Source: Synechococcus sp. Tobar12-5m-g
GTDB taxonomy: Bacteria; Cyanobacteriota; Cyanobacteriia; PCC-6307; Cyanobiaceae
Assembly (NCBI RefSeq): GCF_024345415.1
Contig: NZ_JAGQBB010000005.1
Span: 62,001-126,000 of the forward strand
Length of the DNA stretch: 64,000 nt
Direction of reading: 5' to 3'
Positions 29,505 through 45,319 of the stretch are shown here, piece by piece; the first letter of the stretch is position 1, and each line of letters opens with the position of its first letter. The notes under the pieces were generated by a model. It did not search any database, was not told where the DNA came from, and saw only the letters and a program-made list of their open reading frames with translations. Both the position numbers and the translations under genes were made by a program.

Positions 29505-31517
<2,013 letters not shown>

Positions 31518-31535: not shown

Positions 31536-31618
31536 CTCTTTCACCAGGAACAGACACACCGATCCTTTCCTGCTGGGCGTCCGGAAGCCTGGTCCAGGTG
31601 TTTCCATTGGGGGCCTTG

Positions 31619-32734
31619 ATGCCGCACAACCGAAACGCCAACCCAGAACGGCTGTCGATCGTCCTCCCGACCTACAACGAGAGGGAGAACATCGTCAGGA
31701 TTGTGGAGGACCTCCTCCCACTCCAGCAGCACTTTGTTCTCGAGATCCTATTCGTCGACGATGATTCGGCCGATGGAACAGCTGATCTGATCAAGGAACT
31801 GGCGCACCGGCAAGCAGCGGTGCGCCTGATCCGCAGGGTGGGACGGGCAGGCCTGGCCAGTGCCATCAAGGAAGGGATTCTCGATGCCACCGGCGATGTG
31901 GTCGTGGTGATGGACTGCGATGGCCAGCATGAACCGGCGGCGGTTGAAGCCGCTGTCAGGGCTCTTGTCGAATCCGGCGACGATCTGGTGGTGGGCAGTC
32001 GCTTTCACGCCGATGCCGCCATCCATGGGCTGAGCCCGATGCGCACCCGTAACTCCAACTGGGCGAACACGATCGCCCGCTTCAGCTTGCCCGGCTATCG
32101 GCGACTCACTGATTTCATGAGCGGCTTCTTCGCCCTCAGACCGGAGCCAACCTTGCCGTTCGTGCGGCGGGTGGACGTGAACGGGTTCAAGTTTCTCTAT
32201 GAGCTGCTCTCGATTAGCCAAGGGCGGTTGCAGGTCAGCGAGATTCCGCTGTGCTTCAAGGCCCGCATCGCCGGTTCTTCAAAGCTGGACCTGGCCATCG
32301 TCTGGGATCTGGGGGTCTCGATGCTGCACACGCTGCTGCTGCGATCGATCCCTCGCCGTGCGATCAGTTTCGCTCTGGTGGGCTTCAGTGGGGTGGCGGT
32401 CCAGTTGCTCGTGGTTCAGTTCCTGATGGCAGGACTGCAATTTCCGTTTGAGCAGGCTCTGCCCATGGCGGTGGTGGCTGCAGCCACGTCGAACTATCTG
32501 ATCAACAACGCTCTAACGTTCCGTTTCCAGCGACAGCAGGGACTGGCCCTGCTGCAGGGTTTGCTGAAGTTCCTGCTGGTTGCCTCCTTGCCGGTGCTGG
32601 CCAACGTGGGCGTGGCCTCCTCCTTCTACAGCCTCGTGTCCCGAAACACGTTCTGGGCCCAGCTGGCAGGCATTCTGGTGGTGTTCGTCTGGAACTACGC
32701 CGCCTCATCCCGATTTGTTTGGAACACGCCCTGA
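31619..32734 (+). CDS. GtrB-GtrA fusion: polyprenyl-phosphate glycosyltransferase with flippase domain
   Basis: 371 residues. Residues 12-235 are a GT2/DPM1-type domain: VLPTYNERENI, the metal-binding VDDDSADGT and VVVMDCDGQHEP (Asp99, Asp101), and FMSGFFALRP. It would load a sugar, probably glucose, onto undecaprenyl phosphate. Residues 248-370 are a four-helix GtrA domain (ISFALVGFSGVAVQLLVVQF, NYLINNALTFRF, FVWNYAASSRFVW), thought to flip the lipid-sugar. ATG 31619 gives a normal GT2 N-terminus. Its end overlaps the convergent GtrII-like gene by 30 bases; together they could modify surface polysaccharide. Confidence 0.88.
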   Translation: MPHNRNANPERLSIVLPTYNERENIVRIVEDLLPLQQHFVLEILFVDDDSADGTADLIKELAHRQAAVRLIRRVGRAGLASAIKEGILDATGDVVVVMDCDGQHEPAAVEAAVRALVESGDDLVVGSRFHADAAIHGLSPMRTRNSNWANTIARFSLPGYRRLTDFMSGFFALRPEPTLPFVRRVDVNGFKFLYELLSISQGRLQVSEIPLCFKARIAGSSKLDLAIVWDLGVSMLHTLLLRSIPRRAISFALVGFSGVAVQLLVVQFLMAGLQFPFEQALPMAVVAAATSNYLINNALTFRFQRQQGLALLQGLLKFLLVASLPVLANVGVASSFYSLVSRNTFWAQLAGILVVFVWNYAASSRFVWNTP

Positions 32735-34324
32735 GCGGGGTTCCTTCACCGCTCTTCGGTCTTCGGTTGACCAGGTCACCGGCACATCCGGCCCGTAGCT
32801 CTGCAGAGTGACAATCACGGTCTTCCCGTCGAGAAAAACCGAGCCTGCCGAAGGCCAGGGCTTGACATTCTTTGAGACCGCTCGAAGGACGGCGCTCTTC
32901 CGTTCTTCAGTGGTGGGTTGCCGGAACTGCTCGTTGCCCAAGAAAAAATTCAGGATCTCGGTCTGGCGAAAGAGGGCGAAAGCCTCTTTGTTCATTCTAG
33001 GGGCGTCTGTTGTGGGTGGCCAGCGCACAAAGTCCGCAAATTGAAAGGGTGGGTAGCGTCCGATGACCACAAGAGCTGTCCGGTCTTTCGTCGGCAAGCC
33101 CAGTAAGGGCTCAACCCTAACCAGGATCCGATTGATCATGTTGAGTTCATAGGTAGTCTTGAGTTGGGCGGCATTGGAGGCCTGGGTGCCGAAGACCAGG
33201 AAGAACCAAAGCAGCAACCAGGCCAACGGCAGAGCTGCCCAGCGAAGCGCTTGTGGCTGCAGTGCAAGCCCCAGAAGGAAAAAGAGCGCGTAACCGTAGG
33301 CAGCGTAGAACCTGCCTGCATCAGAGGGAGTTAAACTGTTGACGATATTGGAACCATTCACCGCCACCGGAACCAAAAGAACCGCGGCGAAAAGGGCTAA
33401 ATGAGCAGATTGATCCCTGCCCGACCTGGCCAGCAGAGCGATCAAACCCAGGGCAACAAGAATCAGGGGAATCAGGCCGAGCACTCCTCCCTTGGGGACA
33501 CCGCCCACACCGGAGGCTAGATAGTCAAAGAATTTTGAGTAAGATACACTTATTTGTCCAATCGCCTCACCCATGCCGTTGACATGGGTACTTTGCGCGA
33601 TCGGATCTGTGACCACGACCTTCGAGACTAGCCAGAACAGCACAGCCGACAGCAGTAAGGGAGCCGGGGTGAGTAGAACCTCACGCCGGACCGCATGAAC
33701 CTTTAACATGAGGGCCAGATTAAATAGCGTGAAGACACTGACCAAAGCAATCTTCGGAGCATAGGTTGATAAGGCCAAAAAGTAGAAGGTGGAGGTGCCC
33801 AGAATTCGCGTTGAGTCATGCCTGCTGCGCACCCACACCAGCGAGCCCAGAATCACAAACGTATCGCCAATCACGAAGGAAATGTGGTCAGCGGCAAACG
33901 AGTAATAGTCAAGAAAAGCGGGATAAAGGCATATAATTCCAGCCAGCAGGAAGACATATGACTTGCCCTGCAGCCCCACCAACCTGGCAAAAAGAATGCC
34001 ATTCAATGCCTGAAGCATCGCCGCACCGATCATCTGCACGGACTGGACTCCGCTGCCGCCCTGAGCCAGGATGATCAGATCGGCCAGCCATCGGCCTTCA
34101 CTTGATGTCTTGAAGGTTGGATACTCTCCATAGAGCATGGTATTGGGAAAGGTATGGTCCGTGAACGTCATCGCTGTGAAGAAGTAGCTGTAGGCCACGA
34201 ACTGCAGCAGAAGCAGCGCTATGAAGACGAGGCGATAGCGATCGGCCCCTGCGATGAGGCTCTGAAGCAAGGTCCCCACAGTTGTTTTGGTATCGAAAAG
34301 TCTTGTCGTCCATGTCCTCTTCAT
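32705..34324 (-). CDS. GtrII-type glucosyltransferase-like membrane protein
   Basis: 539 residues with roughly ten hydrophobic segments and a soluble C-terminal 130-residue tail. The first loop (FTDHTFPNTMLYGEYPTFKT then SEGRWLADLIIL) and FAADHISFVIGDTFVILG fit GtrII-type transferases, which add the glucose from undecaprenyl-phosphate-glucose to O-antigen on the outer face. ATG 34324 is chosen because GGAG sits 7 bases upstream; ATG 34330 and 34390 are in frame. The gene is visibly richer in A+T than its neighbours (one line, 33541-33600, has 29 G+C of 60), suggesting acquisition. Confidence 0.72.
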   Translation of the reverse strand: MKRTWTTRLFDTKTTVGTLLQSLIAGADRYRLVFIALLLLQFVAYSYFFTAMTFTDHTFPNTMLYGEYPTFKTSSEGRWLADLIILAQGGSGVQSVQMIGAAMLQALNGILFARLVGLQGKSYVFLLAGIICLYPAFLDYYSFAADHISFVIGDTFVILGSLVWVRSRHDSTRILGTSTFYFLALSTYAPKIALVSVFTLFNLALMLKVHAVRREVLLTPAPLLLSAVLFWLVSKVVVTDPIAQSTHVNGMGEAIGQISVSYSKFFDYLASGVGGVPKGGVLGLIPLILVALGLIALLARSGRDQSAHLALFAAVLLVPVAVNGSNIVNSLTPSDAGRFYAAYGYALFFLLGLALQPQALRWAALPLAWLLLWFFLVFGTQASNAAQLKTTYELNMINRILVRVEPLLGLPTKDRTALVVIGRYPPFQFADFVRWPPTTDAPRMNKEAFALFRQTEILNFFLGNEQFRQPTTEERKSAVLRAVSKNVKPWPSAGSVFLDGKTVIVTLQSYGPDVPVTWSTEDRRAVKEPRSGRVPNKSG

Positions 34325-34522
34325 CACCATGCTCCACCACGCGACGCGGTTCGATTGTCCTTGTGGCCTTCCCGGTGTTGCCAATGGCAACCGAAGCTGT
34401 TCACAATTAGGTGTAATGGGGCTCCGGATGACGGCAGTAAACTCAGGGTTGCTTCAAAGTGCGTCACAGGCGCTCTGGCCTGAGCTGCCTGCATCGGGTT
34501 TGGTCGGTGGAATCGCCCCCTT
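34325..34522. other. gap between the GtrII gene and IS debris
   Basis: No gene seen. A CAGGGTTGCTTCAAA-type sequence near 34446 could be the left terminal repeat of the ISAs1-type fragment that starts at 34523, but no matching right end is visible. Confidence 0.3.
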
Positions 34523-34689
34523 GTGCCAGAAGCCACCACTGCTGCAACCGATCTTGATCTGATCAGCTTCCTGCAGGCAATCCCGGACTCACGCATGCGG
34601 CGCGGGATCCGCATTCCTGCCTGGTACCTATTGCTGGTAGCGGTGCTGGGAATCCTGAGCGGCAGCAAGAGCTTGCGGGATCTTGAGCG
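34523..34689 (+). pseudogene. ISAs1-family transposase, N-terminal fragment
   Basis: About 56 residues resemble the start of ISAs1-type transposases (DDE_Tnp_1-associated domain): LISFLQAIPDSRMRRGIRIP, YLLLVAVLGILSGSKSLRDLERY. The homology stops abruptly at 34690, where a 24-base hairpin repeat begins and the IS5-type remnant follows on the opposite strand. The catalytic DDE domain is missing from the window. Confidence 0.7.
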
Positions 34690-34713
34690 CTACTCCTGCG
34701 GAGAAGGCTGCGC
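34690..34713 (-). repeat. 24-base hairpin repeat, copy A (IS junction)
   Basis: Minus strand core CTTCTCC-GCA-GGAGTAG with flanking GCGCAGC. CTCC/GGAG forms a 4-bp stem with a GNA triloop. It lies exactly at the junction between the truncated ISAs1-type and IS5-type sequences, and its TAG ends the IS5 reading frame. It differs from copy B at two of 24 positions. Confidence 0.85.
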
Positions 34714-35063
34714 CAAGAGGATGTTGCTCAGGCGGATCAGGTTGTAGGCGATCACGTGCAGGCCAAACACGGCGCTGACGTTGTCCCGGCCCCGCAGCTT
34801 GAACTGGCGCAGGCCGCCGAATGCCTTGATCCAGCCAAAGATTTTTTCGATGCCCCGGCGGGCATTGATCGATTTGGCGTAGCCCTCATGCCGGGCGGTG
34901 CGGCCATCAATGGCTGAGCCACCGCTGCGGGCCGTGTTCAGGGCCACGTCGGGCGTGACACCGATCCGCCGCATCTCAGCGACAAATCCTTTGGTGTCGT
35001 CGTTCTTGTCTGCGCCGACGGTCTTCTGGTGGGCACCGGCGAGGTGAGGTCTGCTGCCATCTC

Positions 35064-35087
35064 CTACTCCTGCGGAGAAGACTGCGT
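35064..35087 (-). repeat. 24-base hairpin repeat, copy B
   Basis: Removing exactly these 24 bases restores the expected transposase reading GAT GCC ACC AAG | GAG ATG GCA (DATK-EMA). The repeat adds the codons ACG CAG TCT TCT CCG CAG GAG TAG, so it keeps frame but brings a stop. Confidence 0.88.
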
Positions 35088-35227
35088 CTTGGTGGCATCC
35101 CGCTCACCGGTGCCCGTGGCCTGTGTGACGCGGCAATCGACGATCAGGTCATGACGGTTGTCCATCAGCACATGTCCCCGGTAGCTCCGCTGCGCTGGAT
35201 GGGCATTGGATTTGCGGGCCAGCAAGG

Positions 35228-35251
35228 CCACTCCTTCGGAGAAGACTGCGT
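35228..35251 (-). repeat. 24-base hairpin repeat, copy C
   Basis: Differs from copy B at two positions: loop GAA instead of GCA, and TGG instead of TAG at the end. The stem CTCC/GGAG is unchanged. Removing 24 bases restores a TDP-V-ALLARK reading that fits this transposase family, whereas the present frame has eight extra residues. Confidence 0.85.
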
Positions 35252-35556
35252 CAACAGGATCCGTGCTGGAGTGGTGGGTCTCATTGCTGAGCTTGATGCC
35301 GCGAAAGTCGCCCTTGGCCCGCTTCTTTCCCTCTCTGGGTGCACCGAATCCTTCGCCAGGACCTGTGGGCGGAGGCGGAGGATCCTCCTGGCCATCGATC
35401 CGCTTCAAGGAGGCGTGTGACGCCCAGACCTGAAGCACAACGTGCCGTCCACGGAAAAGTGGTCGTCACTGAGCAGCGGTTTGACCTCCGGAGCTCCCTT
35501 CAGCTTCTCCTGGAACAGCCCTATGACGTCGTCAGTGAGGAGCCGATCACGGTTCT

Positions 35557-35592
35557 AGTGGCTCCGCCACGCTCGGCCTGCGGCCTCGGTAA
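35557..35592. repeat. 36-base double-hairpin insert in the IS5 transposase
   Basis: Plus strand AGTGGC-TCC-GCCAC, then CTCGGCC-TGC-GGCC and CTCGGTAA. Two triloop hairpins lie in tandem (GTGGC/GCCAC and GGCC/GGCC). Deleting these 36 bases joins GGTTCT to TTGTGAA and restores the expected HPTTFTKNRDRL reading on the minus strand. It keeps frame but introduces a TAG. It is unrelated in sequence to the 24-base repeat. Confidence 0.8.
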
Positions 35593-35870
35593 TTGTGAAT
35601 GTGGTCGGATGCCAGATCGGATTGTCGGGGCTCAAGCCCACGAACCAGCGGAACAGCAGGTTGTAGTGGAGCTGCTCCAGCAGCAGCTGCTCTGGTGGAA
35701 CCGATGGTCGTCCTTCTGAGGCGTACAGCCTGCAGAAGGTGGGATGGAGCCGATCGAGAGCCTGATCCGCCAACTTGCGAATCCGCCTGAGCGGATGACT
35801 GGTCGGGATCCGCTCCTCGATCGAGACGTTAGGAGAGCAAGAAGCCGCTGTGCTCCTGTTGGCCTCGCAT

Positions 35871-36044
35871 CAACGAATGGGGCTGTTGATCCATTCACGC
35901 AGAGATTGCAGGGTTTTTCAGCAAACTCTTAATGGCGCATAAAGCAGCATCAAATACTACTGAGCACTCCTGGCTGGGGCCCGCCCAGCGGCATCGCTGC
36001 CCATCCTGGGGCCAACATGCCCAGGCCCCAGGAAACGCGCCGCG
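35871..36044. other. gap right of the IS5 remnant
   Basis: No gene seen. The first 60 bases probably contain the IS right end (AGGGTTTTTCAGCAAACTCTT at about 35909-35931); beyond it lies unassigned sequence leading to the transporter gene. Confidence 0.4.
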
Positions 36045-37433
36045 ATGGCCGAGTCGATCGATCTACTGGCGCTGCCGGCGGGCCTGCGGCGGCGAACACT
36101 GCTTGCCTACGGGATCGGCGACGCCGGCACCGGCATGGCTGCGGCGCTGATCGGCTTCTACCTGTTCGTGTTTTACACCCAGATCGCCGGCCTGCCCCCC
36201 TGGCTGGCTGGCCTGGTGCTGATGGTCGGCCGGGCCTGGGATGCGGTGAGCGACCAGCTGCTGGGCTGGCTGAGCGATCGGACCCGCAGCCGCCTGGGGC
36301 CACGGCTTCCCTGGATGATCGGCAGTGCGTTGCCGCTCGGGGTGAGCATGGCGCTGATGTGGTGGTTCCCGCCGGGGAGCGGCGAACTGCTGCGCTTTGG
36401 CTGGTTCGTGCTGATCTCGGTGGTGTTCATGGCCGCCTATACTGGCGTGAACCTGCCCTACTGCGCCCTCGCCACCGAGCTCACCGAAGACACCCAGCTG
36501 CGCACAAGCCTCAACGCGGCCCGCTTCACCGGCTCGATCCTCAGCAGCCTGGTGGGCCTGCTGCTCGGGGCCCTGCTGGTCGGCCATGGTGCCCCCGGGT
36601 TCCTTTGGATGGGGGTGGCCGGCGGCGCGGTGGCGATCGTGGGCACCCTGCTGTGCTGCTGGGGGCTGGCGCCGGCCGCCCGGGTGAGTCGCCGGCCATC
36701 GGGGCTGCCCGAGCCGATCACCGCCCAGCTGCGCCGGATTCGCCGCAATGGCCGTTTTCTGCGGGTGGTGGGCTTGTATCTGCTCCTGTGGGGTGCCCTG
36801 CAGCTGATGCAGCCGGTGTCGCTGCTCTACCTCTCCGAGGTGATGCACGTGCCGATGGACTGGAGCACCTGGATGCTGATCCCCTTCCAGCTCAGCGCCA
36901 TGGCTGGCCTGCAGCTCTGGAGCCGGCTGGCGGCCCGCCGTGGCCGCTTGTGTGCCCTGCTCTGGGGCGGCGGCCTCTGGATCGCCATGGGCGTGCTGGC
37001 CATGGGGCTCGTTCCCCTCGATGCGGCTCTGGCGCCGTTGGCCAGCCTCGCCAACGGCTTCAAGTTCACGCTGCTGATGCTGGTGGTGCTGCTGATGGGC
37101 CTGGGGGCCGCCACCGCCTATCTGCTGCCCTGGTCGCTGCTGCCGGATGCGATCGATGCCGATCCCGAGCGCCCCGCCGGCCTGTTCACCGCCTGGATGG
37201 TACTGACCCAGAAGCTGGGCAGTGCCGTCTCGGTGTTCCTGCTTGGCAGCCTGCTCAGTTGGAGTGGCTTTGTGGCGGGCCGAACCCTGGAGCAACCCCA
37301 GCTGGCGCTGGTGATGATCCGGCTCAGCATCGGCCTGATCCCGGCGGCCCTGGTGCTGCTCGGCCTGCTGGTGATGCGGGGCTGGACGCCGCGGCCAGCC
37401 CTTCCAGGGTTCGCTCCAGGCCCTCGAGAATGA
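36045..37433 (+). CDS. MFS transporter of the GPH (MelB-type) sugar-cation symporter family
   Basis: 462 residues, about 12 membrane helices. The N-terminal LAYGIGDAGTGMAAALIGFY and the loop DRTRSRLGPRLPWM (GPH pattern G-R-R/K-P) are typical of glycoside-pentoside-hexuronide:cation symporters, as is TGVNLPYCALATELTED. Later blocks include DAIDADPERPAGLFTAW. The substrate is unknown. ATG 36045 overlaps no gene; the 3' end overlaps the convergent tetR by 110 bases, with the last 20 residues (proline/arginine rich) outside the helices. Confidence 0.87.
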   Translation: MAESIDLLALPAGLRRRTLLAYGIGDAGTGMAAALIGFYLFVFYTQIAGLPPWLAGLVLMVGRAWDAVSDQLLGWLSDRTRSRLGPRLPWMIGSALPLGVSMALMWWFPPGSGELLRFGWFVLISVVFMAAYTGVNLPYCALATELTEDTQLRTSLNAARFTGSILSSLVGLLLGALLVGHGAPGFLWMGVAGGAVAIVGTLLCCWGLAPAARVSRRPSGLPEPITAQLRRIRRNGRFLRVVGLYLLLWGALQLMQPVSLLYLSEVMHVPMDWSTWMLIPFQLSAMAGLQLWSRLAARRGRLCALLWGGGLWIAMGVLAMGLVPLDAALAPLASLANGFKFTLLMLVVLLMGLGAATAYLLPWSLLPDAIDADPERPAGLFTAWMVLTQKLGSAVSVFLLGSLLSWSGFVAGRTLEQPQLALVMIRLSIGLIPAALVLLGLLVMRGWTPRPALPGFAPGPRE

Positions 37434-38076
37434 TCTCGAACCCAAAGCCGAAGGCATGGAGCCCGTCGTAGCGGCGCTCCATCACCTCGTGGGTGAGCCC
37501 GTTCAGGTGGGGGTAACGATCGGCGGGAAGCTCGGGCAGGTAGGCGGCCGCCATCTGGGCATACTCCTGCGCCTCGATCGGGAAGTTCAACTCCTGCAGG
37601 GTGAACCCGTAGATGTGGCTGTCGATGGCGTTCCAGGCGTGGTCGGCCAGCTCCAGGGTGAACCCCGCCGCCACCAGGCAGCCGAGGGTGGCCTCCACGT
37701 AGCGGAGCATGGCCGGCCCCGTGTTCAGCCGCGAGAGGATGGCCATCGCGGCCCAGGGATGGCGCCCCAGGGCCCGGTGGGCGGAGGTCGCCCGCTCCCG
37801 CAGCGCCGCTTTCCAGTCGCCACCGATCGCCGGTAGGGCGATCTCGCCGACCACGACCTCGACGAGGCCGTCAATGATGGCTTCGCGGTTGGCCACATGG
37901 TTGTAGAGCGACATGGCCTTGACGCCCAGCGCTTCGGCCAGCTTCCGCATCGTGAGCCCCCCGAGTCCCCCCTGGTCGGCGATCTCCAGGGCTGCCGCCA
38001 GCACCCGCTCCCGGCTGAGGGGCAGCCGGGCGATCCTCCCCGGACGGCTCGGCTCCGCCAGGTTCTCCGCCTTCAA
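37324..38076 (-). CDS. TetR/AcrR family transcriptional regulator
   Basis: About 250 residues from the TTG at 38076. The N-terminal helix-turn-helix is GLGGLTMRKLAEALGVKAMSLYNHVANRE, and the C-terminal half resembles the TetR_C ligand domain (LNFPIEAQEYAQMAAAYLPE, RYDGLHAFGFGFEIILEGL). An ATG at 38169 is in frame but lies beyond the palindromic operator and inside the neighbouring gene, so the TTG is preferred. It is divergent from the oxidoreductase gene and probably represses both. The alanine/proline-rich tail runs antisense into the MFS gene. Confidence 0.83.
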   Translation of the reverse strand: MKAENLAEPSRPGRIARLPLSRERVLAAALEIADQGGLGGLTMRKLAEALGVKAMSLYNHVANREAIIDGLVEVVVGEIALPAIGGDWKAALRERATSAHRALGRHPWAAMAILSRLNTGPAMLRYVEATLGCLVAAGFTLELADHAWNAIDSHIYGFTLQELNFPIEAQEYAQMAAAYLPELPADRYPHLNGLTHEVMERRYDGLHAFGFGFEIILEGLERTLEGLAAASSPASPAGRAAPGPPGSGRC

Positions 38077-38101
38077 GCCCAGTCCGCCCGAATGGGTCGA
38101 G

Positions 38102-38133
38102 CTTACGCTGTATGCTTTACTTACGGCGTAAGT
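38102..38133. promoter_or_regulatory. TetR-type operator
   Basis: ACTTAC-GGC-GTAAGT (38119-38133) is a perfect inverted repeat, and a further half site CTTACGC lies at 38102-38108. It sits between the divergent tetR and oxidoreductase starts, where an autoregulating TetR repressor normally binds. Confidence 0.72.
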
Positions 38134-38145
38134 CCGGAATCGACG

Positions 38146-39243
38146 ATGACGGATCAGGGCATGTGGCAAGCGCCAGCAACAAGCAACTGCCAGGCCACCG
38201 ACCCAGACCCTTCCGCCCCCACCATGCGGGCGATCACCCAGGAGATCTACGGCTCATCGGAGGTGCTCTCGATTCAGACCGTTCCGTTGCCCACGATCGG
38301 TGAGCAGGAGCTGCTGATCCGGGTGCGCTCCACCTCCGTCCATGCCGGTGACTGGCATCTGATGCGCGGCAAACCCTTCCTAATAATTCGCCTGATCTAC
38401 GGGGGCCTGCGCAAACCGAAGATCAGGACGCTCGGCTGTGATGTCGCCGGAACCGTGGAGGTCGTCGGCAAGGGGGTCAGCCGGTTCCAGGTGGGCGATG
38501 CGGTGTTCGGTGATCTTTCGGTGTGCGGCTTTGGCGCCTTCGCTGAGTACGCCCGTGCCACCGAAGCAGCCCTGGTCGCCAAGCCCGACGCGATTTCCTT
38601 TGAGGCCGCCGGCACCGTTGCCTGCTCAGGATTGGCCGCCCTGCAGGGCCTGCGCGATCTGGGCCAGCTGCAGGCGGGGCAGAAGGTGTTGATCCACGGG
38701 GCTGCTGGCGGGGTGGGCTCCTTCGCCATGCAGATCGCCAAGGCCTTCGGAGCCGAGGTGACCGGCGCCTGCAGCGCCCACAAGATGGCCATGGTGCGCT
38801 CCATCGGCGCCGACCACGTGATCGACTCGGCCGAGGTGGATTTCACCGCAGGCGTCCCCCGCTATGACCTCATCCTGGACAACGCGGCCTATCGCCCCCT
38901 CGCGGACCTCCTGCCGGCGTTGGCGCCCAAGGGCACCTACGTGCTGGTCGGCGGCTCCATGGCCCGGTTCTTCCAGGTGATGCTCTGGCAGGGGCCCTGG
39001 ATCTCCCGCACCAGCGGTCGCAAGGTGCGGGTTCTGGCCTCGAATCCCAATCCGGCCGATCTGCAGACCCTGGCTGATCTGCTCGTTGCCGGCAAGATCG
39101 TGCCGTTCATCGATCGCCGCTGCCCTCTTGAGGATGTTCCGGAGGCGATGGCGGCGCTTGAGCAGCGGCAGGTTCGGGGGAAGGTGGCCATCGCTGTTGG
39201 TCCTGGCGAGCTTCATAGCGCTCCACCGCGCCCTCGACGTTGA
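38146..39243 (+). CDS. NAD(P)-dependent alcohol dehydrogenase / quinone-oxidoreductase-like MDR protein
   Basis: 365 residues. Zinc-free medium-chain reductase: SVHAGDWHLMRGKPF, GCDVAGTVEVVGKGVSRFQVGD, the catalytic-region AAGTVACSGLAALQGL and the nucleotide-binding VLIHGAAGGVGSFAMQIAK. No Cys/His zinc set is present. ATG 38146 has GGAA 6 bases upstream; ATG 38224 would remove a non-conserved 26-residue extension. Regulation by the divergent TetR is very likely; the substrate is unknown. The end overlaps sulP by 137 bases. Confidence 0.88.
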   Translation: MTDQGMWQAPATSNCQATDPDPSAPTMRAITQEIYGSSEVLSIQTVPLPTIGEQELLIRVRSTSVHAGDWHLMRGKPFLIIRLIYGGLRKPKIRTLGCDVAGTVEVVGKGVSRFQVGDAVFGDLSVCGFGAFAEYARATEAALVAKPDAISFEAAGTVACSGLAALQGLRDLGQLQAGQKVLIHGAAGGVGSFAMQIAKAFGAEVTGACSAHKMAMVRSIGADHVIDSAEVDFTAGVPRYDLILDNAAYRPLADLLPALAPKGTYVLVGGSMARFFQVMLWQGPWISRTSGRKVRVLASNPNPADLQTLADLLVAGKIVPFIDRRCPLEDVPEAMAALEQRQVRGKVAIAVGPGELHSAPPRPRR

Positions 39244-40876
39244 AGAACAGGCGTTCGGTCCCGAGGGCCGAACCCAGCTCGGAGTGGCGCACCACCCGCA
39301 GACAGCCCGGGTTGAGCCCAGTCAGCCAGAGGCTGACGCCCAGGTCCCGCTGCTTGCGCTCCGCCTCGGTGAGCAGCCTGAGGGCCGAGTATTCGATGTC
39401 GATCACGGCACTGCAATCGATCACCACCACCCTGGGTTCGGCCCGCTCGATCAGCGCCTCCATCTGGCCCCAAACCGCCTGGGCATTGGCGAAGAACAGC
39501 CGGCCCTCGGCCCGCAACAGCAGCAGGCCCGGCCAGGTCTGATCATCGGGATGGGCCGGGTGGTGGCCCAACCGGGGTCGGAACACATCCGTGCCCCGCT
39601 TGCGGGCCAGCACATACACCCGGGGGTTCATTTCCTGCTGCGCCAGCGCCAGCAGGGACACCACCACCGCCACCAGGATTCCCCGCAGGGTTCCGAGCAG
39701 CACCACGCCAGCGAAGGCGATCAGGGCCCAGTGGAACTCGGTGACCCGCACCCGGCGGATCGCCAGGAAATCGGCGGGGGCGATCAGCTCAGCCGAATAG
39801 ACCACCACCACGGCGCCCAGGGCGGCCAGGGGCAGCCGGGCGATCAACGGGGCCAGCAGCAAGAGGGTTCCCATCGCCGCTGCCGCCGTGACCAGCTCGG
39901 CCAGCTGGCTGCGGGCGCCCGCCTGGCGGTTGACGGCGGTCTGGGTGGTGCCGCCGCCAGCGGCCATCCCCCCCAGCAGCGCCCCGCCGATGTTGGCGAG
40001 GCCAAGGGCGAACAGTTCCCTGTTGGGCTGGGGCTGGGGTTCCTTGCGGCCCGCGAAGGCGCGGCCGGCGGCAATGCTTTCGATGAAGCTCATCAAGGCG
40101 ATGCCGGCCGCCGCCGGCCACATCTGCCCCACCAGAGCCAGTTGCGGCAGGGTGAAGGGGGGCAGGCCCTCGGGTACGGGGCCCACGGTGTCCACCCCCA
40201 ACCGCTCCAGGCCGAACAGGGCCGAGACCCCGATCGCCAGGGCGATCGCCACCAGGGGAGCGGGCAGATCCGGCGCCACGCGCGGCAAGCCGATCAGCAG
40301 CCCGATCAGCAGAAGGGCCAGGGCGAGCGTGGGCAGCGAGGTCCGCGGCAGCTGGCCTAGCACCGAGGCGACGTCGCGAAAGAAGTCGGCCTTGTCGATG
40401 GGAACGCCCAGCAGCTTCGGCAGCTGGTCCACCACGATCACCAGGCCGATTCCCGACTTGAAGCCCACCAGGACGGACTCGGAGATGAAATCGGCGACAA
40501 AACCAAGCCGCAGCAGCGCTGCCAGCAAGAGCATGGCGCCCACCAGGAGAGCAAGGGTGGCACTGGCCACCAGCAGCTCCCCCGGCGCGGCCTCCGGCGT
40601 CACCCGGTTCAATTCAGCCCCGACCAGGATGGCGAGGGTGGTGGTGGTGCTGACACTCAGGGGCCTCGACGACCCCAGCAGGGCGTACACCACCATTGGC
40701 ACCAGGGCCGTGTACAGGCCCACTTCCACCGGCAGACCGGCCACGGTGGCGTAGGCCATCGCCTTCGGCAGCACCACCGCCGCGGTCGTGAGCCCGGCCA
40801 CCAGATCGACCCGCCACCAGGATGGCCGGTAGCACAGGATCCAATGGTCCCGGGGCAGGAGTGCCAGCCCTGTCAT
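39107..40876 (-). CDS. SulP family inorganic anion transporter with STAS domain
   Basis: 589 residues. About 11 membrane helices, with family blocks TTAAVVLPKAMAYATVAGLP, GLYTALVPMVVYALLGSSRP, SFIESIAAGRAFAGRK and GGGTTQTAVNRQAGA. The C-terminal STAS domain holds VVVIDCSAVIDIEYSALRLL. Sulfate and bicarbonate (BicA) are both possible substrates in cyanobacteria and cannot be told apart here. The last 35 residues (SPEPAAAQAPPSPPEHPQE) are low complexity and read antisense through the oxidoreductase. The ATG overlaps the ureD stop (ATGA). Confidence 0.88.
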   Translation of the reverse strand: MTGLALLPRDHWILCYRPSWWRVDLVAGLTTAAVVLPKAMAYATVAGLPVEVGLYTALVPMVVYALLGSSRPLSVSTTTTLAILVGAELNRVTPEAAPGELLVASATLALLVGAMLLLAALLRLGFVADFISESVLVGFKSGIGLVIVVDQLPKLLGVPIDKADFFRDVASVLGQLPRTSLPTLALALLLIGLLIGLPRVAPDLPAPLVAIALAIGVSALFGLERLGVDTVGPVPEGLPPFTLPQLALVGQMWPAAAGIALMSFIESIAAGRAFAGRKEPQPQPNRELFALGLANIGGALLGGMAAGGGTTQTAVNRQAGARSQLAELVTAAAAMGTLLLLAPLIARLPLAALGAVVVVYSAELIAPADFLAIRRVRVTEFHWALIAFAGVVLLGTLRGILVAVVVSLLALAQQEMNPRVYVLARKRGTDVFRPRLGHHPAHPDDQTWPGLLLLRAEGRLFFANAQAVWGQMEALIERAEPRVVVIDCSAVIDIEYSALRLLTEAERKQRDLGVSLWLTGLNPGCLRVVRHSELGSALGTERLFFNVEGAVERYEARQDQQRWPPSPEPAAAQAPPSPPEHPQEGSGDR

Positions 40877-41823
40877 CCGCTCAGGCTTGCATGGTCAGGG
40901 GTCAGGGGGCCGGAGAGATCGAGCAGCGGCGACTCCTGGAACGGCCACACCCGGGGAAGCTCCGGCGGGGCCAGGCCGCCTTCCGCCCGGATCCGGACCC
41001 AGATCCGCGTGAACCAGAAGCGGGCCGCCTGGCTGGAGGGGCCCCGGTAGCGGGCCACCAGCCCCTGATCGAGGCGGCCGCAGGCCATCTCGCCGGGGAG
41101 GCCGGCGCGATCGGCGCGGCAGTGCTCCAGCAGTTCGTCGGCGAATGGCCGAGGGGCGGCCCACACCAGGCTGCCGAACACCGGCAAGCCTGCGAGGCCA
41201 TGGCCGCCCTCCAGGCTCTCGCCGCCGAGCTCGAGCCGATCCGCCACAGCCCAGCGTCCCTCGCGGCGAATTTCCAGCAGGGAGCGCCAGCGGCCAGAGC
41301 CCAGCTGTTCGCCGTCGGCGCTGCGGCCCAGCCGCACCACCTCGGCCCCCAGCCAGCTGGCCCCCGCAGCCAGCTCCACGCGGCAAGCCTGCTCAAAGAG
41401 GCCACCGGCAAACACCACCAGCTCCTGGGGAAGCCACTCCAGATCCGCCCCTTCCGCTAGGCGGAAGCCCAGATCCTGACGGGCCCAGCGGCCCTGGGGA
41501 GCCAGGCGGGAGCGGCCGATCGAGCCGTAGATCTTCTGGGCCGCGACGCTGGTGACCAGGGCTCGGCTGCCGGCGGCGAGTTCGGCCTGGATGGCGAGTT
41601 CATCCCCCCCCACCAGACCGCCGGCCGTGTGCAGCAACGGCAGTTCACAGCGGCCTTCAGCCCGGGCGAAGGCCTTCTGGATCTTGAGCGGCGCGGTGGC
41701 GCCCCCCTGATGGGTGGTGGGACCGCTCGGGCCATCGCCCCGGCTGAAGCGCAGCTGGGCGCTGCCCCGCCAGCTGGCCAGGTCACTGGCGCGGACGGGC
41801 GGAAGTGGGGGGGGGAGGGTCAT
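40873..41823 (-). CDS. ureD: urease accessory protein UreD
   Basis: Chaperone for urease nickel-site assembly with UreF and UreG; 316 residues. Motifs: QKAFARAEGRCELPLLHTAGGLVGGDELAI, VTSVAAQKIYGS, LEWLPQELVVFAGGLFEQ and LLEIRREGRWAVADRLELGG. ATG 41823 is used; an in-frame ATG at 41865 adds 14 unconserved residues. It is divergent from ureE. No urease structural gene follows it; sulP does. Confidence 0.93.
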   Translation of the reverse strand: MTLPPPLPPVRASDLASWRGSAQLRFSRGDGPSGPTTHQGGATAPLKIQKAFARAEGRCELPLLHTAGGLVGGDELAIQAELAAGSRALVTSVAAQKIYGSIGRSRLAPQGRWARQDLGFRLAEGADLEWLPQELVVFAGGLFEQACRVELAAGASWLGAEVVRLGRSADGEQLGSGRWRSLLEIRREGRWAVADRLELGGESLEGGHGLAGLPVFGSLVWAAPRPFADELLEHCRADRAGLPGEMACGRLDQGLVARYRGPSSQAARFWFTRIWVRIRAEGGLAPPELPRVWPFQESPLLDLSGPLTPDHASLSG

Positions 41824-41858
41824 CCGGCTGATCGTCGAGGCTGGCTGAGCCCGTTCCC

Positions 41859-41872
41859 GTAGCAACCGCCAC
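41859..41872 (-). promoter_or_regulatory. possible NtcA-like site before ureD
   Basis: Minus strand GTG (41872-41870), eight bases, TAC (41861-41859). It resembles the urtA site in form, but no TAN3T -10 box is clear and the implied transcription start would be almost at the ureD ATG. Confidence 0.3.
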
Positions 41873-41913: not shown

Positions 41914-42417
41914 ATGCTTCGTTTCCTTGCCATTGATCCGCGCGTGAGCGAGCAACCAGGCCCTCCGATCGTGCTGGAGCATCGTCTTGGCCAGCTTCCC
42001 CCAGGCGCCTCGGCGTTGATGCTTCCGCTGGGCGCCGACCAGCGCACCAGCCTGCGCGGCCATCGACGCAGCGCCTGCGGCTGCGACCTGCTGCTGCAGC
42101 TGCCCCGCGGCGCCGCCCTGGAGCCCGGTGAGGCCCTGGCGGACGCCTTGAATCGGGCCTTGGTGGTGGTGGTGGCGGCGGCCGAACCCCTGCTGCTGGT
42201 GCGCAGCCCCGACCCCCTGGCCCTGCTGCAGGCCGCTTATCACCTCGGCAATCGCCACGTGGCGATGGAACTGCGGCCCGACCAACTGCGAATCCTGCAG
42301 GACCCCGTTCTGGACACGCTGCTGCGCCAGCGGGGCCTGAGCGTGGAGCCGATCACCGCTCCCTTCCTTCCGGAGGCTGGGGCCTATACCGGCAGTGGCC
42401 ATCACCATGGCCACTGA
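41914..42417 (+). CDS. ureE: urease accessory protein UreE
   Basis: 167-residue nickel-donating metallochaperone. The C-terminus is histidine-rich (GSGHHHGH) and the metal-site core is present: YHLGNRHVAMEL, then ILQDPVLDTLLRQRGLSVEPI. ATG 41914 gives the normal N-terminus; a longer frame upstream adds unconserved residues. It begins the ureE-F-G operon, with ureF starting 2 bases after its stop. Confidence 0.95.
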   Translation: MLRFLAIDPRVSEQPGPPIVLEHRLGQLPPGASALMLPLGADQRTSLRGHRRSACGCDLLLQLPRGAALEPGEALADALNRALVVVVAAAEPLLLVRSPDPLALLQAAYHLGNRHVAMELRPDQLRILQDPVLDTLLRQRGLSVEPITAPFLPEAGAYTGSGHHHGH

Positions 42418-42419
42418 CC

Positions 42420-43139
42420 GTGGCATCTGAAACCCGCCTCCATCTGCTTCAACTGGTCAGCCCCGCCCTGCCGGTGGGGGCCTTCAGCTATTCGGAGGGG
42501 CTGGAAGTGCTGGTGCAGGACGGACAGCTGGCCGGCCCGGACGCGTTGCGGGCCTGGCTGGAAGCGGAGCTGGCGCGGGGGGCGATCACGATCGAGGCGG
42601 CAAGCCTGAACCCGCTCCAGGCCGCCCTGGGGCGCTGGCGCGATGCCGTGGCGCAGGGCGATCCGGCGGCGGCGGCCTGCTCCGAGGCCGTCCTCATCGA
42701 TCTCGACGGCTGGCTGCTGGCCCTGCGCGAGGCACCGGAGCTGCGGGCCCAGCAGCGCCAGATGGGCCGTTCGCTGCTGCAACTTCTGGCCGAACTGGGC
42801 TGGCCCCTGCCGGGTAGCGACGAAGCTGTGCCGATCAGCCGCCTGGGCTGGCCGGCCGCCTGGGCCTGGGCCGGTCTCTGCCTGGAGATCGGACTGCAGG
42901 AACTGGTGGAGGCCTACCTCTACGGCTGGGTGGCTAACCAGGTGAGCGCGGCGGTGCGGCTGATTCCCCTGGGACCCACCCAGGGGCAACGGCTCCAACT
43001 CGGGCTGGCGACGCTCCTGGCCAGGCGGGCCAGCGAGCTGGTGGACGCCGATCCACACCAGCTCTGGAGCGGTGGCGTGGGGGCGGGCCTGGCCCAGCTT
43101 CGCCACGCCGAGCTCTATTCGCGCCTGTTCCGCAGCTAG
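42420..43139 (+). CDS. ureF: urease accessory protein UreF
   Basis: 239-residue all-helical urease activation factor. Family blocks LLQLVSPALPVGAFSYSEGLE at residues 8-28, LLALREAPELRAQQRQMGRS, GLCLEIGLQELVEAYLYGWV and AVRLIPLGPTQGQ are intact. Start codon is GTG at 42420. Confidence 0.95.
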   Translation: MASETRLHLLQLVSPALPVGAFSYSEGLEVLVQDGQLAGPDALRAWLEAELARGAITIEAASLNPLQAALGRWRDAVAQGDPAAAACSEAVLIDLDGWLLALREAPELRAQQRQMGRSLLQLLAELGWPLPGSDEAVPISRLGWPAAWAWAGLCLEIGLQELVEAYLYGWVANQVSAAVRLIPLGPTQGQRLQLGLATLLARRASELVDADPHQLWSGGVGAGLAQLRHAELYSRLFRS

Positions 43140-43193: not shown

Positions 43194-43841
43194 ATGGGCA
43201 TGAGCAAGTTGCGGCTGGGCGTGGCCGGCCCGGTGGGTTCCGGCAAAACGGCCCTGGTGGAGGTGCTCTGCCGGCGGTTGCGCCATCGCCTGGAGCTGGC
43301 GGTGGTCACCAACGACATCTACACCCAGGAAGACGCCCAGTTCCTCACCCGTGCCGGCGCCTTAGAACCGGAGCGGATCCGAGGGGTGGAAACGGGCGGC
43401 TGCCCCCACACCGCCATCCGCGAAGACTGCTCGATCAACCGGGCGGCCGTGGAGGAGCTGGAGCAGCGCTTTCCCAACCTCGATCTGGTGATGGTGGAGA
43501 GCGGCGGCGACAACCTGGCCGCCAGCTTCAGCCCCGAGCTGGTGGATCTCTGCATCTACGTGATCGACGTGGCCGCCGGCGACAAGATCCCCCGCAAGGG
43601 CGGGCCGGGCATCACCCGCTCCGACCTGCTGGTGATCAACAAGATCGACCTGGCTCCGATGGTGGGCGCGAGCCTGGAGGTGATGGAGCACGACACCGTA
43701 CGGATGCGGGGCGGCAGGCCCTGGTGCTTCACGAACCTGCGCAGCGGTGAAGGGGTGGATCGGGTGGAGAGCTTCGTCTGGCAGCAGTTACCTGATTCTG
43801 TCCGCTCCAGGGGAGAAGCCCGGCCAGAACCCTGCCGTTGA
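43194..43841 (+). CDS. ureG: urease accessory GTPase UreG
   Basis: 215-residue GTPase powering nickel insertion. P-loop GPVGSGKT at residues 12-19, the nickel-binding CPH motif in [34 protein letters not shown] and NKIDLAP. The last about 12 residues ([11 protein letters not shown]) extend beyond the usual end. An ATG at 43200 is an alternative start. The urt genes follow after 140 bases. Confidence 0.96.
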
Positions 43842-43891
43842 TGGCTCCCCCGCCCAAAACGGAGGACCGATTGCCAGCAGTTCCGCAAACT

Positions 43892-43934
43892 GTGCCAGTT
43901 GCTACAAGGTGTTCATGGCCACCGTCGATACGGT
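43892..43934 (+). promoter_or_regulatory. NtcA-activated promoter of the urt operon
   Basis: GTG-N8-TAC (GTG 43892-43894, TAC 43903-43905) is one base from the GTA-N8-TAC consensus. It is followed 23 bases later by a TACGGT hexamer (43929-43934) that fits the TAN3T -10 box, the geometry of class II NtcA-activated promoters. The urtA start follows about 47 bases on, and urea transporter genes are established NtcA targets. Confidence 0.7.
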
Positions 43935-43981
43935 CCGCCCTAACCGCCGTTGAGCGGATCACTCTTCAGGAGAACGACCAG

Positions 43982-45319
43982 ATGAAGCCAAACTCGATGC
44001 AGCTGACCCGCCTGCGCCAGGCCTCACTGCAAAAGGTTTCTTTGCGGGTGCTGGGCGGCAGCCTGGCTTTGGCCACCGGCCTCACCCTGGCCTCCTGCGG
44101 TGGCGGCGAAAAGACCGCCACCGGCGGCGATGGCGGCAGCTTCGACGGCGACGTGAAGGTGGGCATCCTGCATTCCCGCTCCGGCACCATGGCCATCTCC
44201 GAGAACACGGTGGCCGAAGCCGAGCTGATGGCGATCGAGGAGATCAACGCCGCCGGTGGCGTGAAGGTGGACGGCAAGAAGCTGAAGATCGTGCCGATCG
44301 AGGAAGACGGGGCCTCCGACTGGCCCACATTCGCCGAGAAGGCCAAGAAATTGATTGATCAGGACAAAGTGGACGTCGTGTTCGGCGGCTGGACCTCCGC
44401 CAGCCGCAAGGCGATGCTTCCGGTGTTCGAGGCCAAGGATCACTTCCTCTTCTACCCGATTCAGTATGAAGGCCAGGAGTGCTCCAAGAACATCTTCTAC
44501 AGCGGTGCCACCCCCAACCAGCAGGCTGAACCGGCCGTGTCGTGGCTGCTGAAGAACAAGGGCAAGGACTTCTTCCTGGTGGGCTCCGACTACGTGTATC
44601 CGCGCACGGCGAACACGATCATGAAGGAGCAGCTCAAGGCCGAGGGCGGCAAGCTGGTGGGTGAAGACTATCTCCCTCTCGGCAACACCGAGGTCGCTCC
44701 AATCATCGCCAAGATCAAGCAGGCCCTGCCGAAGGGTGGCGTGATCGTGAACACCCTGAACGGCGACAGCAATGTGGCCTTCTTCAAACAGATGAAGGCC
44801 GCCGGCATCACCCCCGCCAATGGCTACGCCATCATGAGCTTCTCGATCGCCGAGGAGGAAGTGGCCGCGATCGGCCCTGAGTATCTCGAGGGCACCTATG
44901 CCGCCTGGAACTTCTTCCAGAGCCTCGACACCCCGGCTTCCAAGAAGTTCACCGCCGACTTCAAGGCCAAGTACGGCGACAAGCGGGTGACCAACGACCC
45001 GGCTGAATCCGCCTACAACATGGTTTATCTCTGGGCCAAGGGTGCCGAGAAGGCCAACAGCGTTGACAACAAAAAGGTGCGGGAAGCCTTGATCGGCGTG
45101 AAGTTCGACGCTCCTCAAGGGCCGATCGAAGTGCAGCCCAACCACCACACCACGGAACTGGTGATGATCGGTGAGGTGCAAAAAGACGGCATGTTCAAGA
45201 TCATCGAGAACCAGGGCATCGTCAAACCCCTGGCCTGGAACCAGTTCGTGCCCGAAACCAAGGGCTACACCTGCGATTGGACCCAGAAGCGTCCCGACGC
45301 CGGCAAGTTCAAGATGTGA
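43982..45319 (+). CDS. urtA: urea ABC transporter substrate-binding protein UrtA
   Basis: 445-residue periplasmic lipoprotein that binds urea for UrtBCDE. The signal sequence ends in a lipobox TLASCGGG with Cys39 as the lipidated residue. The mature part is a type I periplasmic-binding fold: VKVGILHSRSGTMAISENTV, FGGWTSASRKAMLPVFEA, FYSGATPNQQAEPAVSWLL and LVGSDYVYPRTANTIMKE. An AGGAGA ribosome site precedes ATG 43982 by about 9 bases. Confidence 0.97.
   Translation: MKPNSMQLTRLRQASLQKVSLRVLGGSLALATGLTLASCGGGEKTATGGDGGSFDGDVKVGILHSRSGTMAISENTVAEAELMAIEEINAAGGVKVDGKKLKIVPIEEDGASDWPTFAEKAKKLIDQDKVDVVFGGWTSASRKAMLPVFEAKDHFLFYPIQYEGQECSKNIFYSGATPNQQAEPAVSWLLKNKGKDFFLVGSDYVYPRTANTIMKEQLKAEGGKLVGEDYLPLGNTEVAPIIAKIKQALPKGGVIVNTLNGDSNVAFFKQMKAAGITPANGYAIMSFSIAEEEVAAIGPEYLEGTYAAWNFFQSLDTPASKKFTADFKAKYGDKRVTNDPAESAYNMVYLWAKGAEKANSVDNKKVREALIGVKFDAPQGPIEVQPNHHTTELVMIGEVQKDGMFKIIENQGIVKPLAWNQFVPETKGYTCDWTQKRPDAGKFKM

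Follow-up and report, generated by a model that had tools for sequence, protein, structure and literature searches.

Separated urease genes and a foreign ureAB allele in Synechococcus sp. Tobar12-5m-g

The urease accessory genes (ureD, ureE, ureF and ureG) and the urea transporter genes (urt) of Synechococcus sp. Tobar12-5m-g (G000) lie in the window analyzed here, a stretch of 64 kb at positions 62001-126000 of contig C43 in a draft genome of 2.95 Mb and 47 contigs. The structural genes ureA, ureB and ureC are absent from it. We have located them, intact, on the opposite strand of C43, about 97 kb left of ureD. Gene order in three relatives of the same genus (G001, G002 and G003) marks this separation as derived. 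In addition, judged by identities and trees, the allele of ureA, of ureB and of no less than the first half of ureC is not the genus's own; it is closest to that of G008, a member of another genus. Taken together, we consider it likely that a rearrangement, most simply an inversion, and an allele replacement by homologous recombination have led to a complete urease set in two pieces.

Results

A urease gene set in two pieces

Searching the whole genome, we obtained a single ureC match, at C43:4337-6052 on the + strand, with ureA (C43:3690-3992) and ureB (C43:3999-4316) directly 5' of it on the same strand. The ureAB DNA likewise has one match in the genome (C43:3600-4330), and none of the ureA, ureB and ureC matches falls within the window. 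The three genes are intact (C43:3690-6055), and the distance between ureD and ureC amounts to 96.8 kb. All subunits exceed their NCBIfam cut-offs, with 162 bits for gamma (cut-off 123), 161 bits for beta (129) and 963 bits for alpha (TIGR01792; 680). The accessory set of ureD, ureE, ureF and ureG is present as well (Table 1), ureF being recognized only by its position and its homology among relatives. From the sequence, the urease gene set is thus very likely complete, and urease is presumably active in this strain. Within the window, ureE, ureF, ureG and then urtA follow each other on the + strand, divergent from ureD, in agreement with the picocyanobacterial layout, while ureA does not follow ureD on the same strand as it would in a ureDABC operon.

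The initial annotation, made from the window alone, had noted a 4-base overlap between ureD and sulP (40873-40876) and the lack of ureABC, both of which we confirm. It had also proposed to search the remainder of the genome, and the outcome bears out its suggestion that ureABC had moved elsewhere. At the same time, the intact ureABC rules out that the strain has no urease, and with it the concern that accessory and uptake genes would be pointless.

In G001, G002 and G003, ureC is found on the strand of ureD at distances of 4.8, 15.5 and 3.3 kb, respectively. Since all three same-genus relatives (3/3) keep ureABC on the strand of ureD within 3-15 kb, the separation of ureD and ureABC is derived in G000. 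An MFS gene stands between ureD and ureA in each of these relatives. G001 additionally has the TetR gene and the quinone-reductase-like gene there, both of which seem to have been lost in G003; in G002, sulP adjoins ureD and an extra 10 kb separates the MFS gene from ureA. A relA/spoT-like gene and a CLC channel gene were observed between ureA and the MFS gene of G002 (L041:10897-16277). The arrangement of sulP next to ureD is limited to G000 and G002, the gene being located elsewhere in the other genomes with a close homologue.

The relatives thereby support one part of the initial annotation, namely that the order has been rearranged and ureABC relocated. Its suggestion that sulP had taken the place of ureABC is ruled out by G002, which has sulP beside ureD as well as ureABC 15 kb further on the same strand. 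The stretch beyond ureD was also not replaced together with an IS-rich island, as sulP, the quinone-reductase-like gene, TetR and the MFS gene are inherited. A shared ureD-sulP order with ureABC always elsewhere, which that annotation had named as the finding that would speak against it, was encountered in none of the three relatives.

A foreign allele of ureA, ureB and the 5' part of ureC

At the DNA level, ureAB of G000 is 94.6% identical to G008, compared to 80.3% for G003, 79.0% for G001 and 77.2% for G002. The first part of ureC shows the same preference (95.2% to G008 versus 87-88% within the genus). Among 400 genomes of the family, G008 provides the only close match to ureAB (94%), the next one reaching 84%. 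In sliding windows, the genus relatives remain at 77-82% until the start of ureC and become the closest sequences only after approximately C43:6200. G000 and G008 are sisters in a ureAB tree of 41 sequences (support 100/97), with short end branches of 0.047 and 0.012, respectively, and a single clade of the four genus members is rejected in the approximately unbiased test (p-AU 3e-66). For the 5' half of ureC, the genus as one clade is rejected too (p-AU 0.0098), and for the 3' half only marginally so (p-AU 0.045).

Two control genes, ureD and the gene after ureC, look native to the genus. In the ureD tree the four genus members group together (98/97), with G000 next to G002 (100/98); the tree of the gene after ureC likewise has G000 inside the genus, together with G002 (92/95). 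Downstream of ureC the native neighbours appear at once, in the order of G002. The ureAB tree conflicts with the trees of both flanking genes, as is expected of a xenologous replacement. The foreign stretch has its 5' end about 70 bp before ureA, and its 3' end would lie within ureC or shortly beyond. Most simply, ureABC with a short upstream region was supplied by a donor related to both G000 and G008. In G008, ureD is on a contig other than that of ureABC. We also observed in G008 a 73% identical remnant of the 5' end of ureA and its upstream region (L186:1345-1490), about 700 bp 5' of the intact ureA, which is perhaps the leftover of an earlier native copy.

Two other histories of ureABC have to be weighed here. 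In the first, the native genes were lost and a foreign ureABC entered with its own flank at an unrelated place, in line with the foreign ureAB and with the foreign-looking upstream stretch containing a NACHT-like gene. We regard this as improbable: native neighbours occur directly 3' of ureC in the order of G002, and the incoming allele therefore sits at the native ureABC locus. In the second, somewhat less probable still, native ureABC was moved by inversion alone, and its odd sequence would reflect rate variation instead of foreign DNA. The native gene order 3' of ureC and a 3' half of ureC compatible with a G000-G002 grouping would fit. Nevertheless, this history is strongly disfavoured by an ureAB that is 94.6% identical to another genus versus 77-80% to its own, by the rejection of one clade for the genus, and by the short end branches, which leave no room for a rate effect.

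Breakpoints and proposed rearrangement

Relative to G001, C43:3690-35399 is collinear with positions 1366640 down to 1319614, i.e., reversed, and C43:98045 onward is collinear with positions 1367551 upward in the same direction, so that the break falls exactly at the ureA/MFS link. On the 5' side of ureA, G000 remains similar to G001 for about 63 bp and to G002 and G003 for about 35 bp; upstream of the MFS gene, about 9 bp are shared. Within the window, the break is situated about 3 kb beyond sulP, between the end of the tkt-glycosyltransferase block (32734) and the start of the MFS gene (36045), where a degraded insertion sequence (IS) is found. Left of the MFS gene come, in order, this IS, an open frame that matches no Pfam family, a glycosyltransferase-like gene and tkt. 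Judging from the translated fragments at 34660-35960, we take the IS to encode a transposase; its three partial relatives are 84-92% identical over 121-325 bases.

The genes tkt and thiC are at most 1.5 kb apart in six of the 24 genomes searched and near each other in G001. In G000, thiC is located on contig C46, not on C43 with tkt; it points towards a contig end 5.9 kb away, and that end reads like the start of a transposase. Two old links are broken in G000 (the ureA-MFS side and tkt-thiC) and one new link is seen (the tkt block to the MFS gene). A tkt-thiC break on top of the ureA/MFS break is what an inversion predicts, and we infer an inversion rather than another type of rearrangement.

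We propose that native ureD (with sulP), ureEFG and urt kept their place and that ureABC was removed from beside ureD when the chromosome was rearranged. The simplest form would be an inversion whose breaks lay immediately 5' of ureA and between tkt and thiC, with the MFS gene now joined to the tkt side via the degraded IS. Whether at that time or separately, homologous recombination would have exchanged about 70 bp upstream of ureA, ureA and ureB themselves and no less than the 5' half of ureC for the allele of another lineage. UreD, UreE, UreF and UreG would act on UreABC in trans, as the products of scattered urease genes do in other cyanobacteria. The separation would have cut no operon because ureABC probably had its own promoter (see below) and, in this genus, an oppositely transcribed MFS gene was already present between ureD and ureA.

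Several observations weigh against this scenario. The reciprocal junction, which would connect the side of thiC with that of ureA, coincides with contig ends, and the inversion is not closed; the contig comes from a draft assembly, although it holds no N. An IS-mediated inversion would have inverted IS copies at both breaks, and these were not found, the assembly containing one full copy. Furthermore, G002 also lacks the tkt-thiC link, a break which may thus be older or repeated, and the junction at C43:35.4 kb is common to G000 and G002 and absent from the other 22 loci (2/24). Because G002 shares this junction and lacks that link, the region has been rearranged more than once, and a simple inversion alone does not give the whole G001-to-G000 order. 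Finally, the 3' half of ureC does not reject a grouping of G000 with G002 (p-AU 0.198).

With 47 contigs and an IS at the junction, an assembly chimera in which the tkt block was wrongly joined to the ureD block through the IS also comes to mind. We give it a slim chance. The junction IS is degraded and the sole full copy, its relatives are partial and diverged to the extent given above, and the contig is free of N. Moreover, the break on the ureA side lies elsewhere, and the foreign DNA upstream there does not depend on this IS.

Some further features were noted near the breaks of the proposed rearrangement. The interior of the IS holds three copies of CTCCT[G/T]CGGAGAAG[G/A]CTGCG (34693-34712, 35067-35086 and 35231-35250; chance expectation 0.02), which may represent a small dispersed repeat that contributed to the breakage of the IS. 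The large open frame at the breakpoint (32705-34390) has a poor codon fit (score 14) and gave no family in the Pfam search. The immediate left neighbour of ureA in G000, L002:1159-3411, is a NACHT-like gene whose score of 25 bits narrowly misses the Pfam cut-off. PADLOC did not support classing the genes left of ureA as defence genes; it returned one weak match of 14.8 bits and none for the NACHT-like gene.

Gene order across the family

We searched 201 genomes of the family. ureD is present in 147, of which 131 have a ureC assigned to the same contig. The 16 genomes left out comprise 11 with the two genes on different contigs and five without a ureC entry, i.e., G108, G125 and G148 (only fragments or weaker matches) and G159 and G198 (none listed). 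The gap between ureD and ureC is at most 1 kb in 105 of the 131 genomes, 1.15 kb in one and more than 1.3 kb in 25, G000 included. G000 has the largest gap, followed by one of 16 kb, and it is the only genome with the two genes on opposite strands. The default assumed in the initial annotation, ureDABC divergent from ureEFG/urt, is apt in the light of the layouts reported for picocyanobacteria (PMC6737895). The view that ureABC always lies apart from ureD and that nothing was rearranged, to which the 25 larger gaps and the frequent scattering of cyanobacterial ure genes reported in the literature (PMC6737895) might lend some colour, has next to no probability, as the 105 gaps of at most 1 kb and the common strand in all genomes but G000 refute it for genus and family.

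Two unusual loci were seen in passing. In G035, an open frame (L095:3868-5361) stands between ureA and ureB, the subunits being adjacent in all other loci read. In G051 (L103, L104), ureD, ureA and ureB are together and ureC is well inside another contig, resembling the layout reported for Nostoc PCC 7120.

The cargo of the ureD-ureA gap varies by genus (L091, L093, L096, L097) and includes a cyclase with a cyclic-nucleotide MscS channel, efflux genes, a Coq4-TauE-LemA-DUF2207-beta-lactamase-like set and TPR-CHAT. As a control, the stretch from ureD to ureG, with a median of 1.3 kb, exceeds 1.7 kb in 29 of 128 genomes, those with the two genes on different contigs having been left out as judged by eye. 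Given this frequency, compared to 25 of 131 for ureD-ureC, the ureD/ureA junction is not unusual within the cluster, and its candidacy as a special insertion hotspot is weakened.

A promoter-like element upstream of ureA

Directly before ureA, at L002:3620-3689 in G000 and likewise in relatives, lies an element composed of GGTTC-N5-GAACC followed, in a fixed register of 31 bases from start to start, by CTGCCAGAGTG. In 38 aligned genomes from 11 genera, GTT...AAC and TGN-NANNNT are (nearly) invariant and the letters between them vary. A score of at least 15/21 is reached in 39 of 59 genomes, versus 3 of 1180 dinucleotide shuffles and 2 of 1080 other stretches; the score derives from the same sequences as the consensus and is biased towards them, the shuffles and other stretches serving as control. 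The second block looks like an extended -10 element. Taking it as one would place the palindrome's centre about 42 nt before the start deduced from it, the position of a class II activator. As this promoter-like element precedes ureA in 39/59 genomes, ureABC probably carries its own promoter, and the element may function as such.

In its spacing the element resembles an NtcA-activated promoter, which is reported to have a GTAN8TAC site centred about 41.5 nt upstream of the start (PMC3898017): the palindrome has a similar position and is accompanied by a -10-like hexamer. It differs in being GGTTC-N5-GAACC, not GTAN8TAC, and the palindrome as an NtcA site is rejected by its sequence. No GTAN8TAC site was found in the 700 bp upstream of ureA in G000-G003. 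A wider regulon of the palindrome did not emerge either, 560 kb of G001 containing 18 sites with at least 9/10 arm letters versus 17, 12 and 23 in shuffles, and no site of that strength was seen at ureD/ureE or ureG-urtA.

The element is present whether or not ureD touches ureA, and it went along with ureA in G000. The ureD/ureA junction is filled or split in 23 of 39 genomes with the element and in 3 of 20 without it, a comparison that took in nearly all filled cases and only some contiguous ones, across differing genera, and that is no proof. We tentatively suggest, with less than even confidence, that ureABC of freshwater Cyanobiaceae is a self-contained, portable transcription unit with a putative activator site GGTTC-N5-GAACC and an extended -10 element. 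Its independence would let ureABC be swapped between genera and the ureD/ureA junction be repeatedly filled or broken, giving accessory and structural genes partly separate histories. If so, the binder of the palindrome would be a new regulator of urease.

Features of the window

The coordinates of the features discussed are collected in Table 1. Against NCBIfam TIGR00815, sulP scores 367 bits, 13 bits under the cut-off of 380; its two domains assign the product to the SulP family of transporters and imply no specific substrate. The real start of the quinone-reductase-like gene is probably 3' of the TetR gene.

Table 1. Features of the 64-kb window in window coordinates.
Feature	Position	Strand	Evidence or remark
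tkt, transketolase, edge of the block now abutting the ureD side	29505-31517	+	
Glycosyltransferase-like gene, adjoins tkt (in G001 too)	31598-32734	+	Locus comparison
Breakpoint interval	32735-36044	.	Left, tkt-glycosyltransferase block; right, MFS-to-ureD block
Degraded IS at junction	34660-35960	-	Sole full-length copy in genome, 3 partial relatives
MFS_2 transporter, gene facing ureA in same-genus relatives	36045-37433	+	Pfam, locus comparison
TetR-family regulator	37327-38169	-	PF02909, PF00440; homologues in G001, G141, G169
Zinc-dehydrogenase/quinone-reductase-like gene	37897-39243 (open frame)	+	Pfam; homologue beside ureD in G001
sulP, SulP/STAS anion transporter	39107-40876	-	PF00916 (Sulfate_transp) and STAS domains
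ureD, urease accessory gene	40873-41865 (open frame), inner ATG at 41823 (annotated 40873-41823)	-	PF01774 UreD, 2.9e-52
ureE	41914-42417	+	NCBIfam
ureF	42420-43139	+	Position and homology among relatives; NCBIfam search without match
ureG	43194-43841	+	TIGR00101, 328 bits
urtA, urea ABC transporter binding protein	43838-45319	+	TIGR03407, 564 bits (cut-off 493); match begins at residue 106 of open frame

Discussion

A genome that seemed to have the helpers of urease and no enzyme has the enzyme after all, which calls for caution before a pathway is declared broken from one window. The case is a recent and dated one of urease gene scattering, in which the enzyme subunits were swapped between genera and the helper proteins remained those of the genus. 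The junction's tolerance of breaks may be explained, in a way open to testing, by the conserved element before ureA, which may also lead to a regulator of urea use in an abundant freshwater group.

As reported in the literature (PMC6737895), Prochlorococcus MED4 and MIT9313 and Synechococcus WH8102 have two opposite clusters, urtEDCBA-ureGFE and ureDABC; scattering of the urease genes is frequent in cyanobacteria and complete in Synechocystis PCC 6803, and in Nostoc PCC 7120 an unknown gene separates ureC from ureDAB, with ureEFG located elsewhere. As in the divergent picocyanobacterial cluster, ureD of G000 is divergent from ureEFG, followed by urt on the strand of ureEFG, whereas ureABC is 97 kb off on the other strand and not behind ureD. 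With Synechocystis PCC 6803 and Nostoc PCC 7120, G000 has in common a complete set in several places, whose products would act jointly in trans. The scattering is old there, yet recent in G000, being absent from three same-genus relatives, and is accompanied by a swapped ureAB allele. In xenologous gene replacement, homologous recombination puts a foreign allele at the native locus. G000 matches this with a foreign allele at the native locus and a native flank on one side, but its other flank is also foreign and rearranged. In itself, the scattering of the urease genes in G000 is mostly ordinary and represents a known kind of change of recent date; its combination with a swap of structural genes between genera and with a conserved element before ureA is less so.

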